This document shows, one piece after another, positions 1 through 64,000 of a stretch of 64,000 nt of DNA. Source of the DNA: Eledone cirrhosa (lineage: Eukaryota > Mollusca > Cephalopoda > Octopoda > Eledonidae); the NCBI GenBank assembly GCA_964016885.1, contig OZ024740.1:199013082-199077081 (forward strand). Reading direction: 5' to 3'. Under the pieces are notes generated by a model. That model was given only the letters and a program-made list of their open reading frames with translations. It was not told the origin of the DNA and made no database searches. Made by a program: the position numbers and the translations under genes. Position 1 is the first letter of the stretch; every line of letters starts with the position of its first letter.

Positions 1-40
1 TTAAATAAAAGTCAAATGATTAAATTTAGCTTCGTTTATT

Positions 41-95
41 ACTGCTATATATATTTCAGTGACAGCCATCTTTGGCTGTGACCTCTTCAGGCAGT
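41..95 (-). ncRNA. Hammerhead ribozyme, type I, near-intact
   Basis: Read on the minus strand: stem I is ACUGC pairing with GCAGU, the core is CUGAAGA (fits CUGANGA), stem II is a 10-bp stem with one C/C mismatch around the loop AAAGAU, then GAAA, a short AU-only stem III, and the predicted cleavage falls after UA, between 46 and 45. All invariant core positions are present. A related copy lies at 23949-24010 on the plus strand. Known biology: type I hammerheads with tiny stem III occur in Penelope-like elements and retrozymes. Inference: self-cleaving RNA at the end of a retroelement that runs off the window edge. Confidence 0.75.
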
Positions 96-720
96 TTGAA
101 TTAGTATGAAATAGACAAGTACATATGTTGTTTAGGTGTATAATATTGTCAATACTCTGATATGCCCAGTTCCCTGTTGGGTTGTTAATTCACTGAGGAA
201 CTGGAGTCATATGAATTCAAACAAACGAATTTCAGTGTCAAAGGTCCCCTTCTCCTCTCATTGGTCAGTTATTAGAACATTCCTTTTTTTTTTTTTTCAT
301 TCTCAGTACTTTTTATAGTTTTACCCTACATTGTTCTACTTACCGTTTCGACTTCCTCCCCCTCCCCCTCCCCCGTATCCTCTTTGACCTCACGCCCAGC
401 TGTAGCCGGCACTACCACCGCATGAATGGGTCTACTCCACCCCCTCCCCCCTTTTCTCCTACCGGCAGGTTTAGCTACCCCTTCCCCCACTAATTTGCCA
501 TCACAGATTTACTACTAACTTGTGATGTGACCAATGCTGGTGATCATCTCTTTGACCATATATGGAATTACCCCTTGATAAGCTCGGCTATTTAAATACC
601 AGAATAAATTTTCATTCAGTCCAGAATTAGCCGTCGAAACGGCTTGAGCTCACCCGTCGGGGTCTTACTTGTTCCTATTACCCTCTCTACTACCCTAAGT
701 ATTGAGTACTTTGGTGCGTT
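96..720 (-). other. Ribozyme-upstream repeat sequence, no gene
   Basis: No coding sequence seen. Short words (such as the reverse complement of AACTGACCAATGAGA) are shared with 23.75-23.95 kb, the region just upstream of the related ribozyme there, so this is probably the same decayed repeat family. A C-rich pyrimidine tract lies at 350-465. Confidence 0.35.
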
Positions 721-754
721 ATGGTCCACCTGGTTTCTTACCACATTTCCTTCG

Positions 755-823
755 TTATATATATATATATATATAATAATATTAATAATAATAATAGTAA
801 TATAATATTAATATATATATATA
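755..823. repeat. (TA)n / (TAA)n microsatellite
   Basis: TA dinucleotides grading into TAA and TAT units. Confidence 0.9.
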
Positions 824-883
824 TTTCATTTCTGAATTTGTTTAGCAAGATGCTTTATCTGAAAACGAGTGTTGAAACCGATA

Positions 884-1411
884 TTGTTATGCTTTGGGAG
901 GGTCATGTTGCCAATAAGAAACACACGCAGCAGTGCTTTCACTCCAATTTATTATAAATTAAATTTATAAATTAAATAGAAAACATAAATGGAATAGCAA
1001 CATCACAACTTACAATTAAAGTCAAAATGAAAACACACACACACATAGAACAAACAACCAACCAGTAACATGTCAATAAACAAATAAATAAACAAATAAA
1101 ACACACACAGACACCCGGATGTAACACATGCGCAAACTAAACACACAACACACACAAAAACAAGATGGCGTAGGACAGAACAAAGGAGAGGCACAAAACA
1201 AAGAAAAGAATCCCCAGTCACCGAGGGGTCACATAATGTGTGACGAAAGAACTTTGACAATATATGAACAACCGTCCGATTATGGAACCAACCAACCAAC
1301 CGGAAATTAATAAATTCTTAAATTTATAAATTTAATTTCTAATAAATTGGATTGAAACATGTGGTGCGTGTGTTTCTTATTGGCAACATGACCCTCCCAA
1401 AGTATAACAAT
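884..1411 (+). mobile_element. PLE terminal module with inverted termini
   Basis: About 75-90 bp at 884-965 is repeated in inverse orientation at 1315-1411; both ends carry CTTTGGGAGGGTCATGTTGC followed by AATAAGAAACACAC. The inner plus-strand part holds a hammerhead-like motif at 1217-1258. The same order (AGATGGCGTAG, ribozyme, then tail ending ATGACCCTCCCCAAG) is found on the minus strand at 17.5-17.8 kb directly after a GIY-YIG reading frame, so this is read as the 3' module of a Penelope-like element joined to an inverted copy of its own tail. It could equally be described as a foldback non-autonomous element. A (TA)n tract abuts the right end. Confidence 0.6.
1217..1258 (+). ncRNA. Hammerhead ribozyme, decayed core
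   Basis: Stem I GUCA/UGAC pairs perfectly, stem II GUCACA/UGUGAC is perfect around UAAUG, GAAA is present and stem III is A-G with AA loop. The first core segment reads CCGAGGG instead of CUGANGA, so activity is unlikely. Related to the motif at 17691-17740. Confidence 0.55.
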
Positions 1412-1661
1412 ATATATATATATATATATATATATATATATATATATATATATATATATATATATATATATATATATATATATAATATATATATATATAT
1501 ACGTACATATATATATATATATATATATGTATGTGTGTGTGTATGCGTGTGTGTGTGTGTGTCTTTATACATATATATATATATATATATATATAATATA
1601 TATATATATACGTACATATATATATATATATATATATATATATATATATATATATATATAA
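1410..1661. repeat. (TA)n with embedded (TG)n
   Basis: Long TA runs with a TG-rich block near 1529-1562 and two near-identical TA/CGTACATA segments around it. Overlapping frames here encode only Tyr-Ile or Thr-His repeats and are not genes. Confidence 0.95.
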
Positions 1662-60958: not shown

Positions 60959-61053
60959 TTTTACTAAGAAGAACTTACTATTGAATCCCGAAGACTCTTG
61001 TCACGGTATGTTTTCGATCTACTATGTTATTCAACCTTGAGGCGTTCTTTGAT

Positions 61054-61338
61054 TTATTTCATCGTATGTCCCCTATTCACTAGCATTAATGAATTATATA
61101 AAGCAATGCAATTCTCCAAGTGAAAAATACGTATTCTGAACTTTGTGTCATCAAAGCAATTTCTCTCGACTGGCCCTTCAAATTGTTTCTCACGTTCAGA
61201 ATAAGAAATATGTCTACTTTCGGAACCGCCTTCAATAAATCTCCTCTTCAGCAAAATACCCATTCTCGAACCATCGTATTTTAGAATCACAGTGTTAAAT
61301 TGGTCAGTAAAGTTAATTGAAAAACACAAGCAAATCAA
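61054..61338 (-). CDS. Unidentified open frame, possible exon
   Basis: 94 codons, non-repetitive composition (ILKYDGSRMGILLKRRFIEG, FRIRIFHLENCIALYNSLML). No domain recognised; no good acceptor site at its 5' side. Confidence 0.18.
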   Translation of the reverse strand: MICLCFSINFTDQFNTVILKYDGSRMGILLKRRFIEGGSESRHISYSEREKQFEGPVERNCFDDTKFRIRIFHLENCIALYNSLMLVNRGHTMK

Positions 61339-61821
61339 TAGTGTTGGATACCGGGTCTATATTTTATTCACTTCCTCCATCCTAATTACAACTTTCATCT
61401 TCACTTATGGCAATGTTTTCTTTCCATAGCAACCTATCTGAACCCAATACGGATATTTTCAAGATTGTTTCCATTGACGGATAGGATTTGTTTGCATTAT
61501 TGGAAATGTCCGAAAAACTATTACGATAACACTTGTACTAATATATATTATTTTGTAGAATCTTACTGAGTTAAGGCTTTACCTAAAACGATCTCCATAC
61601 AACATCTAATTTTTAAAGGCCTCGATTGCAATGCATACTAGTCAAACAAATTCTTACATTTAATTCTTATGTTTTTCATTATTTATATCAAAACATTAAA
61701 TTGATACCAGCCCGTAAATTCGAAATATATATTTTCGATATTATTTGCGTATTATTTTTATTCTAGTTTCATATAACTAACTATTTAATTGATTCTATGT
61801 AAAGCTAGCTGAGAGATTTTC

Positions 61822-63028
61822 TTGGGGCTTGTGAACAAATCTTTTGTTCATACCTTCAATTTACCAACCAAAAGTTCGGCCAATTTGAAAAGAAAAGTGC
61901 GGAAGAATGAAACCAACAGTAATACTTGTTTCTACTTTTGTGAGGAAAAAAGAATTTTTAATTTATCCTCTGACAAAAATATCTTCGAAGCTAACGCTAA
62001 TTATTATAATAGTGCGCTATCTAGGGCTGGATATCTAGACAAAATTAGGTATACTAAGGAAACTAATCTTGGCAGAGCCTATAGTAACTCTAGTAATGTA
62101 GCTAGTGATAATCATACCACTAACAAAAGGAGGAGACCTAGATACAAAAATATCCTTTGGTACACCGCTCCCTTCTCACTTTCCGTTATAATAATATCCC
62201 TAAAAATATCTATTAATATCCCTATTAATAATATCCCTAAAAATCTTCCCTCCTTCACATATATATACCAAGATATTGAATAAGCATACTATTAAATTCT
62301 CATACTCCACTACCTCGAACATTTCTAAAATTATCTCAAGACATAATTCTAAAATATTAAAGAATAACACATATGCATCCAACCATGAGAGTCATAATAA
62401 TAACACTATAAGACGTCAATGTAAACTCTAGGCAAAATAACACAAATATAAATACGACGTCAAACATAACTTTGAGGAATACATCAAATAGTAATGTAAA
62501 TCTAGAAACTTTAGCACCTCATTTAGTAAATCCACCACTCCGGTTCCTAATATAATTAACCCTGGGCCACTTGCCAATAACACTGTAAATATTCTTAATC
62601 GTAAATGCAACTGCCCTATTAGAACTAATTGTCCTATTAGTAATTTCTGTCTCGATAAAGACCTAGTATATGAATGTAAAGTGGTAACCAATACCTATAC
62701 CTACATTGGCTCTACTTCTACCTCTTTTAAAGCAAGATTTTATAATCATTCTTCTTCATTTAAATATCCACTTAAAAGGACCAGCACCGCACTCTCAGAG
62801 CTTATTTGTTCCTTAAAAGACAAAAACATTAATTACGAAATTTCTTGGCGTAAAATCTACAACACATCTCCATACACCGATGCTTCTTTATCTAGTGTTT
62901 GTAATTTATGTCTAGTTGAACAATTTAGCATTATCTCGAATTTCAACTCTATAATAAATGGAAGAACAGATTTATTCGGTCTTTGCAATCATAAATTCTT
63001 CAAGACCTTTCACAAAGTATATAGCTAA
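61822..63028 (+). pseudogene. PLE-type protein with GIY-YIG nuclease
   Basis: First frame (61822-62283): SSDKNIFEANANYYNSALSR, AGYLDKIRYTKE, then RYKNILWYTAPFSLSV, a conserved block before the nuclease. After frameshifts: VNLETLAPHLVN, NRKCNCPI, and frame 62681-63028 with the nuclease TYTYIGSTSTSFKARFYNHS, LSELICSLKDKNINYEISWR, the Cys motif VCNLCLVEQFSII and NGRTDLFGLCNHKFFKTF. This is the clearest nuclease copy in the window. The RT is missing. Class assignment to Penelope-like elements is by the GIY-YIG plus ribozyme combination. Confidence 0.65.
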
Positions 63029-63865
63029 TATCCTGTAACTTTTCCCACGAATAACGGTTAATTTTTTACACATATTTTTTTACATATATATTATTTTTAC
63101 ATATATATATTTGTTTATATATTTTGTTACACATATATTTTTTTACACATATTTCATTATATTCTACAATGTATTAATTTTCTCAGCATATTTTAAGCCT
63201 TTGACCTTTTTTCGATAGCCTTAAATTTTCGCTCAAACCTTCGTAGATTTTGTAAATAAACTATGACGCCATATGTTTTTTCTACGTTTATAAACCTTTA
63301 TTTACTTGTTGATATTAAATAATAATTAAATAGTATACCCCACATATATGGATTTTTAATAGAAATTTTTAATTTTGACAAAGATAGACTATTTTTATTT
63401 TTTATTTTATTTTTATTTATTTTATATAAAAATCTTTTTTTATACTTATTTTAATTTAATTTAATTTTATTTTATTAATACATTTTTACACTTCTTAATC
63501 CAAGTTTTAGTATTTAAACCCAATATATAATAATATACCCAGTTTCTATATTTTAGACCTCTAACATTTGAATGCCATCTATAATATTCGCACATACACC
63601 TCATCAATTTACTTTTTAACCGTTATCTACAGCTGTTTTCATTTTGAATGCGTTCCTGAACAAAAGTCTCTCTCTCACTTATTTTCTTTCTCTCTGTTCC
63701 TTTTTTATTTTTTATTTTTTCTCTCCTCACTTTCTTTTTCCTTTTTCTCCTTCTTTTCTTTTTTTCTATTTTCCTGTCTTTTTCTTACTATTATATTTTC
63801 TGTCATAAGTAGGTTTTGCACTTTCTTGTTGACAAGTGTTTTTAGGCCTCATATCATGTTACCTT

Positions 63866-63933
63866 ATTTTATCTGATGAGTACACAATTTTTGTCCCAGG
63901 ATAATGTTGTTTTCGAAATGCGCATAATAAAAT
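63866..63933 (+). ncRNA. Hammerhead ribozyme, P3
   Basis: Stem I AUUUUAU/AUAAAAU identical to P2 although stem II differs (GUACACAAUUUUU with GGAUAAUGUUGUUUUC). CUGAUGA, GAAA and AUGCGCAU are kept; predicted cleavage after AUA at 63926. Confidence 0.7.
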
Positions 63934-63971
63934 ATATGGAACTTCTTTAACCGTCTTTTAATTTCTTCTTT

Positions 63972-64000
63972 TATATATATATATATATATATATATATAT
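63972..64000. repeat. (TA)n, runs off window
   Basis: TA repeats to the last base. Confidence 0.95.

Follow-up and report, generated by a model that had tools for sequence, protein, structure and literature searches.

The question raised by this locus is why one stretch of a cephalopod genome carries so many hammerhead ribozyme motifs, and what kind of element accounts for them. The stretch, called the window throughout, comprises 64,000 nucleotides of Eledone cirrhosa DNA (assembly GCA_964016885.1, contig OZ024740.1, positions 199,013,082 to 199,077,081 of the forward strand), in which the initial annotation had listed about 18 motifs in seven or more families. In large part the hammerhead set is real, dense and of a known kind, and is mostly explained by Penelope-type insertion. 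As read from the self-comparison of the window (whose list omits rows lying wholly within the 540-nt and 40-nt arrays) and from the alignment of 3' ends, the hammerheads appear to be carried by about 12 insertions, pairs and arrays being counted once, and to lie at the ends either of Penelope-like elements (PLEs) or of non-coding retrozyme-like units. The window is probably a graveyard of Penelope-type insertions, where the hammerheads would be 3'-end modules placed upstream of the element end, the latter being the point at which reverse transcription would start.

All 17 listed coordinates were inspected on both strands, and 15 are hammerheads or derived from hammerheads. An intact type I arrangement, with the CUGANGA and GAAA core, three stems and an open stem I, is found at six of the 17: the sites at 41(-), 13234(+), 15176(+), 43239(-) and 56451(+) come from the strict descriptor scan, while the intact status of 63866(+) comes from the soft-score scan only. 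Decayed homologs of intact copies account for four more (53360(-), 23949(+), 5846(+) and 6166(+)), and another four, belonging to two families, have altered cores with no intact copy in the window (44133(-) and 44458(+) in family F; 1217(+) and 17691(-) in family G). The site 14230(-) is a homologous 3' half-motif only, from family C. The remaining two lack support: 24026(-) falls in the 3' part of a family D insertion, without the 5' core, and 60366(-) reaches at best an expectation value (E) of 1.7 with a covariance model and has no homologous copy in the self-comparison. Also rejected were 16684(+) and the strict-scan match 61251(-), which have weak stems or an altered core and no homologous copy; the latter is probably a chance match. 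Most of the listed motifs are therefore real, but they are not independent, as inverted pairs and tandem units multiply the roughly 12 insertions. The listing also overlooked the largest set, six copies in the 540-nt array named H, together with a candidate at 9086-9172(+), referred to below as 9094, and a possible relic near 15566(-).

In view of the controls, it is very improbable that most of these motifs resemble hammerheads by chance, as might happen in DNA rich in AT and in repeats. The strict descriptor finds seven sites in the window (five of the 17, plus 9094 and 61251(-)), as opposed to three matches over 20 dinucleotide shuffles, a mean of 0.15. A soft score of at least 60 is reached by 13 matches, or nine places if the five H copies are counted once, against a mean of 0.3 for 60 permuted-core decoys, and the reversed or complemented window gives no score above 49.4. 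Homologous copies moreover lie at corresponding positions of repeated elements, and it is this homology, judged from sequence, that carries most of the weight in calling sites.

Several results weigh on the side of chance. When one core mismatch is allowed, the strict scan finds eight real sites, whereas 10 shuffles give 2.7 on average and up to seven; the top single decoy scores 71.5; one decoy core gives 12 matches at 55 or above, compared with 15 for the real core; and no hammerhead in the window passes the Rfam gathering threshold. At a soft score of at least 40 there are 28 real matches versus 14.5 in the control. A single score of 60-64 is no more than suggestive and does not settle a site, since block shuffling, repeated 60 times, produced a match as high as 62.9. 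None of this scanning was blind: the weights of the soft score were fixed after sight of the 17 sites and before the H array was known, and the decoy-test thresholds of 55, 60 and 63 were picked after the soft-score scan of the window. The 9094 candidate, and to a lesser degree H, may yet be chance matches.

Relaxing Rfam to an E of 10 or below yields 103 matches, of which two are hammerheads: 15176, with 29.1 bits (gathering threshold 34) and an E of 0.0047, and 43223, with 22.4 bits and an E of 0.52. Such low scores may be typical of minimal PLE variants, and the window shows that these motifs escape the gathering thresholds. For the giant squid, 235 hammerhead 1 ribozymes have been reported (PMC6962438), possibly at thresholds other than gathering, at which the window would count as zero.

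Three small covariance models, built from families A and D (three sequences), B and C (two sequences) and all five sequences, retrieve homologs and are weak across families. Among its 21 listed matches the A+D model finds the decayed D copy at 23949 with an E of 2.7e-5 and the A copies 53364(-) and 63869 with 0.0015 and 0.0016, and it retrieves the unrelated family C at 0.17. The B+C model lists 11 matches, among them the B units at 5845 and 6166 (E 6.7e-4 and 2.1) and, from family F, 44136(-) (E 0.055); families A and D are absent. The five-sequence model (26 matches) finds 23949 at 3.7e-4, 44136(-) at 0.038 and 44461 at 0.25; at 63866 (E 0.01) and 13234 (E 0.11) its alignment is confined to the 5' part and misses the hammerhead fold, and it scores its own training member from family A, 56456, at an E of only 0.3, so that it handles a long stem II badly. 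None of the three models lists H, 9094, 1217, 17691, 14230 or 24026. Minimum-energy folds of 12 sites have z-scores between -3.02 and -0.02. Stems I and II flanking an unpaired core appear only in the D copy at the left edge of the window, and in C and H some core nucleotides are paired to the strand of stem III; these folds weigh against the Penelope-type account.

What carries the motifs is seen best in family A. The longest insertion of this family (53316-56641) is a head-to-head pair of 5'-truncated copies with a tail on the right end only, in which the hammerhead is decayed at 53364-53424(-) and intact at 56455-56515(+). A shorter inverted pair on the plus strand (13011-13336) has a tailed left arm (13011-13148) and a right arm with an intact hammerhead (13234-13302); a 28-nt tandem duplication at 13133-13188 lies at its arm junction. 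A further 5'-truncated copy (62387-64000, plus strand) is cut by the window edge and carries a GIY-YIG endonuclease fragment at 62495-63025 and a hammerhead at 63866-63930. Family C is an inverted pair at 14185-15366(+), with a half hammerhead in the left arm (14185-14257), an intact one at 15175-15220 in the right arm and a copy of a SINE-like (short interspersed nuclear element) repeat inside. Family D comprises an element cut by the window edge, whose intact hammerhead at 39-97(-) ends in AUA at the cleavage site, was found by the strict and soft scans and served in training the A+D model, and a copy at 23949-24008(+) with a decayed stem II. In family F (44090-44552, plus strand) the 113-nt arms carry core-altered hammerheads at 44136-44181(-) and 44461-44512(+). 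The first family G insertion (G1, 825-1413, plus strand) is an inverted pair with a core-altered hammerhead at 1217-1260 and a putative tail at 825-880, its left arm (881-976) being the inverted 3' end of 1318-1413. The second (G2, 17500-18644, minus strand) is a PLE-like fragment with a YIGET motif near 18251 and a core-altered hammerhead near 17691. A large inverted pair at 19675-23544, called P20 and given no strand, has arms at 19675-21217 and 21734-23544 with 290 gaps between them in alignment; it has no recognisable hammerhead, and a resemblance to the C-terminus of a PLE endonuclease was noted by eye only.

Self-comparison and arm alignment thus give eight inverted pairs, if the retrozyme-like B43 and H described below are included, with arms 88.5-95.9% identical: 95.1% over 1,503 aligned positions in the long A pair, 95.6% over 45 in the short one, 95.9% over 73 in C, 93.7% over 95 in G1, 93.3% over 105 in B43, 88.5% over 113 in F, 93.0% over 43 in H and 92.6% over 1,532 in P20. 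The 3' ends point outward, as judged from the hammerheads or, for P20, from its endonuclease-like end by eye. In the 3'-end alignment six of the eight (both A pairs, B43, C, G1 and H) have one short and one tailed end, so that inverted terminal repeats with an optional tail, as expected of PLEs, are present in the window. The tail is backed by a second copy or an array unit in four of these six, namely the two A pairs, B43 and H.

Such pairs would have arisen when each strand of a cut, AT-rich target served to prime complementary DNA (cDNA), one at the short and the other at the tailed start site. An alternative to cDNA synthesis at both target strands is self-priming, in which an antisense template is the source, as has been proposed for a rotifer Penelope from palindromes at inverted junctions (PMC3846280); it would fit the high identity of the arms, compatible as this is with a single source molecule. 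Self-priming is nevertheless rather unlikely as the origin of the pairs, since two separate starts explain the short and tailed ends of six out of eight pairs more simply, and since a PLE protein has been shown to extend both strands and to use two start sites (PMC11167929). Terminal repeats of a DNA transposon or foldback element were rejected, as the arms of the long A pair include endonuclease-like sequence and arm lengths vary. The idea that the cleavage site of the hammerhead sets the limit of the short arms was also dropped: it fits the short A pair and nearly H, while C and F overrun the site and G1 and B43 stop earlier.

The predicted cleavage site lies at a recurring distance from the end, 45 nt in four copies of A, 52 in C, 51 in H, 50 in the D copy at 23949 and 45-46 in F. 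Five of the seven families thus have a spacing of 45-52 nt, measured to the nearer end or to the one that can be read. A TA tract of at least 12 nt is found within 10 nt of nine of the 12 outer ends of the six pairs with a short and a tailed end and of 13 of the 20 listed ends, versus 3.2% of positions, a comparison biased by the placing of ends where similarity stops, partly at the tract itself.

Other features of the ends weigh against Penelope-type insertion. The distance is 134 nt in B and 155 nt in G1, and hence not universal; the end strings used for it were picked by eye; and a "short" end is not distinguished in family D, where the copy at 23949 has one readable end, or in F, whose two ends are alike. 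P20 has no clear tail, the tails of C and G1 are known from a single copy, and target site duplications are unreadable at the insertions.

Traces of coding sequence link some of the motifs to PLEs. The clearest is a GIY-YIG endonuclease fragment of another PLE-like element at 16921-17415(-), which matches PF01541 above the Pfam cut-off (E 3.6e-7), has no linked hammerhead and gave no match up to an E of 1 against solved structures. The A fragment at 62495-63025 lies upstream of its hammerhead; its PF01541 match (E 0.009) falls below the cut-off, a point against the PLE reading. YIGST and YIGET motifs are present, the latter upstream of the G2 hammerhead. No Pfam match was obtained for the G2 frame or for three homologous pieces of the long A insertion, ten further frames gave only weak matches below the cut-off, and no coding piece was found in families C, D, F and G1. 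By sequence, the PLE assignment appears best supported for A, followed by G2 through its motif, while C, D, F and G1 would be assigned by layout only. The surroundings of the hammerheads yielded no reverse transcriptase, which is a further point against PLE origin; the three RVT_1 matches (24931-25914, 30039-30722 and 37262-37855) are all some 0.9 kb or further from the nearest hammerhead, and the PLE copies are 5'-truncated. The view of the initial annotation that these are type I hammerheads with a minimal stem III, linked to PLEs and both dense and diverse, agrees with the GIY-YIG and YIGET sequences found upstream of motifs.

Two families differ from the rest in being non-coding. Family B occurs as two tandem 320-nt units at 5834-6352(+), designated B58, with decayed hammerheads at 5846 and 6166, and as the inverted pair B43 (43072-43650, minus strand), with its tailed end at 43072, its short end near 43650, abutted by a SINE-like repeat, and an intact hammerhead at 43238-43285(-). 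Family H (49775-53239, plus strand) is a tandem array of about 6.3 units, each 540 nt long; every full unit contains a probable hammerhead, and the array's own 3' part recurs inverted at 49778-49820. No Pfam match was found in ten frames of at least 75 amino acids from H and B58, two frames at the H borders being excluded. Non-coding tandem units each bearing a type I hammerhead, the hallmark of retrozymes, are thus seen in B and in H, the H hammerhead being the probable one.

The cores in H lie at 50292, 50831, 51371, 51911, 52451 and 52991 and consist of CUGAUGA (CUGAUAA in the first unit) and GAAA, with a stem III of ACUAAUUAGU and a five-pair stem I. The motif is probably a hammerhead, because its cleavage site would lie 51 nt from the short end, near the value in four other families. 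Less favourable are the six-pair stem II, which has a basal C-A mismatch in all copies, the failure of the covariance models to retrieve H, and soft scores of 63.9 in five units, just over the shuffle maximum, and 55.9 in the first.

The RNA of both families folds better than dinucleotide shuffles (z -3.05 for B, with one of 100 as good; z -4.15 for H folded as a linear molecule, with none of 100 as good), and the circular form of B has a minimum free energy of -71.5, compared with -52.6 (standard deviation 3.6) for 15 single-base shuffles. Across the aligned H units 19 of 541 columns vary, and three of these alternate perfectly between odd and even units (TCTCTC, AGAGAG and GAGAGA); a pattern check recovered two columns in full and the third in five of six units, all six agreeing in the alignment. 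At the left end, the partial unit covers a single alternating column and keeps the phase there.

B43 and H carry the inverted border and the two alternative ends of PLEs, a layout that appears to favour the published idea of PLE machinery moving retrozymes. It may be, although this is offered as a tentative proposal carrying somewhat less than even weight, that B and H were inserted by Penelope machinery acting on both target strands from two starts, and that H arose by rolling-circle reverse transcription of a dimeric circle, a two-unit template being traversed three times and the other strand contributing a stub. Within the probable account of Penelope-type insertion given above, the RNA of B and H would have used the PLE machinery in trans, and that of H would have been copied several times around a dimeric RNA circle. 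With the start placed only some 50 nt past the cleavage site, a cleaved linear unit would template only a stub from the short site, and long copies would need uncleaved multimers or circles. The alternation in H is the expected trace of three turns around such a circle, and unequal crossing-over would match it too.

Indeed, B and H could be ordinary satellite arrays spread by unequal crossing-over, the PLE-like ends being incidental. Unequal crossing-over also produces higher-order alternation, and column 18 of H separates units one and two from the other units, a grouping not expected of copying in one step. The two families show no similarity to the PLE families of the window beyond one 51-nt TA-rich row, so that none of these stands out as their partner, a difficulty for the trans model. 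A satellite origin is nonetheless improbable, as it does not account for the inverted 3' part at the opposite border and the two alternative 3' ends of B43 and H, or for the distance between cleavage and short end in H, which resembles the 45-52 nt of A, C, D and F. If the tentative proposal above were correct, this spacing would mean that the hammerhead is placed where cleavage decides between a template for a full copy and one for a stub.

Other features of the window lie outside this argument. The 9094 candidate, found in the strict scan, has an 8-bp stem III and a soft score of 67.8; direct repeats of 60 nt (88.9% identical) at 8866-8928 and 9498-9557 flank it and could represent a pseudo-LTR-like (long terminal repeat) pair. 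The possible relic at 15520-15572(-), with a soft score of 44.0, is on the same strand as the GIY-YIG fragment at 16921-17415 and downstream of it. A LINE-like (long interspersed nuclear element) pair of frames at 35921-37858 matches Exo_endo_phos (E 4.7e-12) and then RVT_1 (E 1.8e-15), and reverse transcriptase fragments with weak RVT_1 and zf-RVT matches are found on the minus strand at 24602-25914 and 29265-30722. The SINE-like repeat, of about 175 nt, is of a kind that would by itself suggest a cephalopod, and has many copies in both orientations, some of them 94-97% identical; the self-comparison places them at 7420-7590, 12111-12208, 13722-13895, 14641-14818, 22724-22908, 30784-30922, 43649-43931, 44596-44701, 49194-49383 and 60772-60967. 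A near-perfect palindrome (99% over 218 nt) with a TA repeat at its centre lies beside insertion C at 13901-14118, a 150-nt hairpin-forming palindrome (90.7%) at 8532-8680, and a 40-nt minisatellite of about 15 copies at 34762-35352.

Among known systems, PLEs with minimal type I hammerheads in their pseudo-LTRs are the closest, reportedly described by Cervera and de la Pena 2014 and by Lunse et al. 2017. The window resembles such elements, as portrayed in PMC7761336, in the small type I core with a very short stem III near element ends, the dispersed relics and the GIY-YIG endonuclease neighbours. It differs in stacking several families within 64 kb, in the very long stem II of family A and in that no full PLE reading frame or PLE reverse transcriptase was found in it.

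The inverted and tailed layout is already known for PLEs. In the Adineta vaga Penelope, most inverted pseudo-LTRs are arranged head-to-head, and one of the two may bear a 31-bp tail (PMC3846280); the ends in the window are likewise head-to-head with a tail optional on one, in AT-rich targets, whereas the tails measure about 45 to 126 nt. The word hammerhead is absent from the main text of that paper. A PLE protein has been shown to cut both strands and extend them, the two start sites enclosing the tail; the PLE hammerhead cleaves only with the protein and is dispensable for insertion in vitro (PMC11167929). The role of PLE hammerheads is termed a mystery in PMC7229834 and PMC7761336, where this role and the enzyme that moves animal retrozymes appear as open questions and PLEs as strong or likely candidates to mobilise retrozymes. 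The recurring distance from cleavage to end provides a testable hypothesis on what the hammerhead does in Penelope elements.

Units B and H are similar to metazoan non-LTR retrozymes, which the available part of PMC7229834 characterises as small tandem type I hammerhead units with self-paired RNA; B, at about 320 nt, falls within their range of 170-400 nt, while H, at 540 nt, does not. The PLE-type inverted borders of B43 and H are not described for metazoan retrozymes in that part of the paper, and a limited literature search found no report of a PLE layout on retrozyme-like units. The new lead is the PLE-type border on retrozyme-like units, together with the dimer pattern in H, and if inverted borders with two ends proved general on such units, genome data alone would reveal what moves retrozymes.

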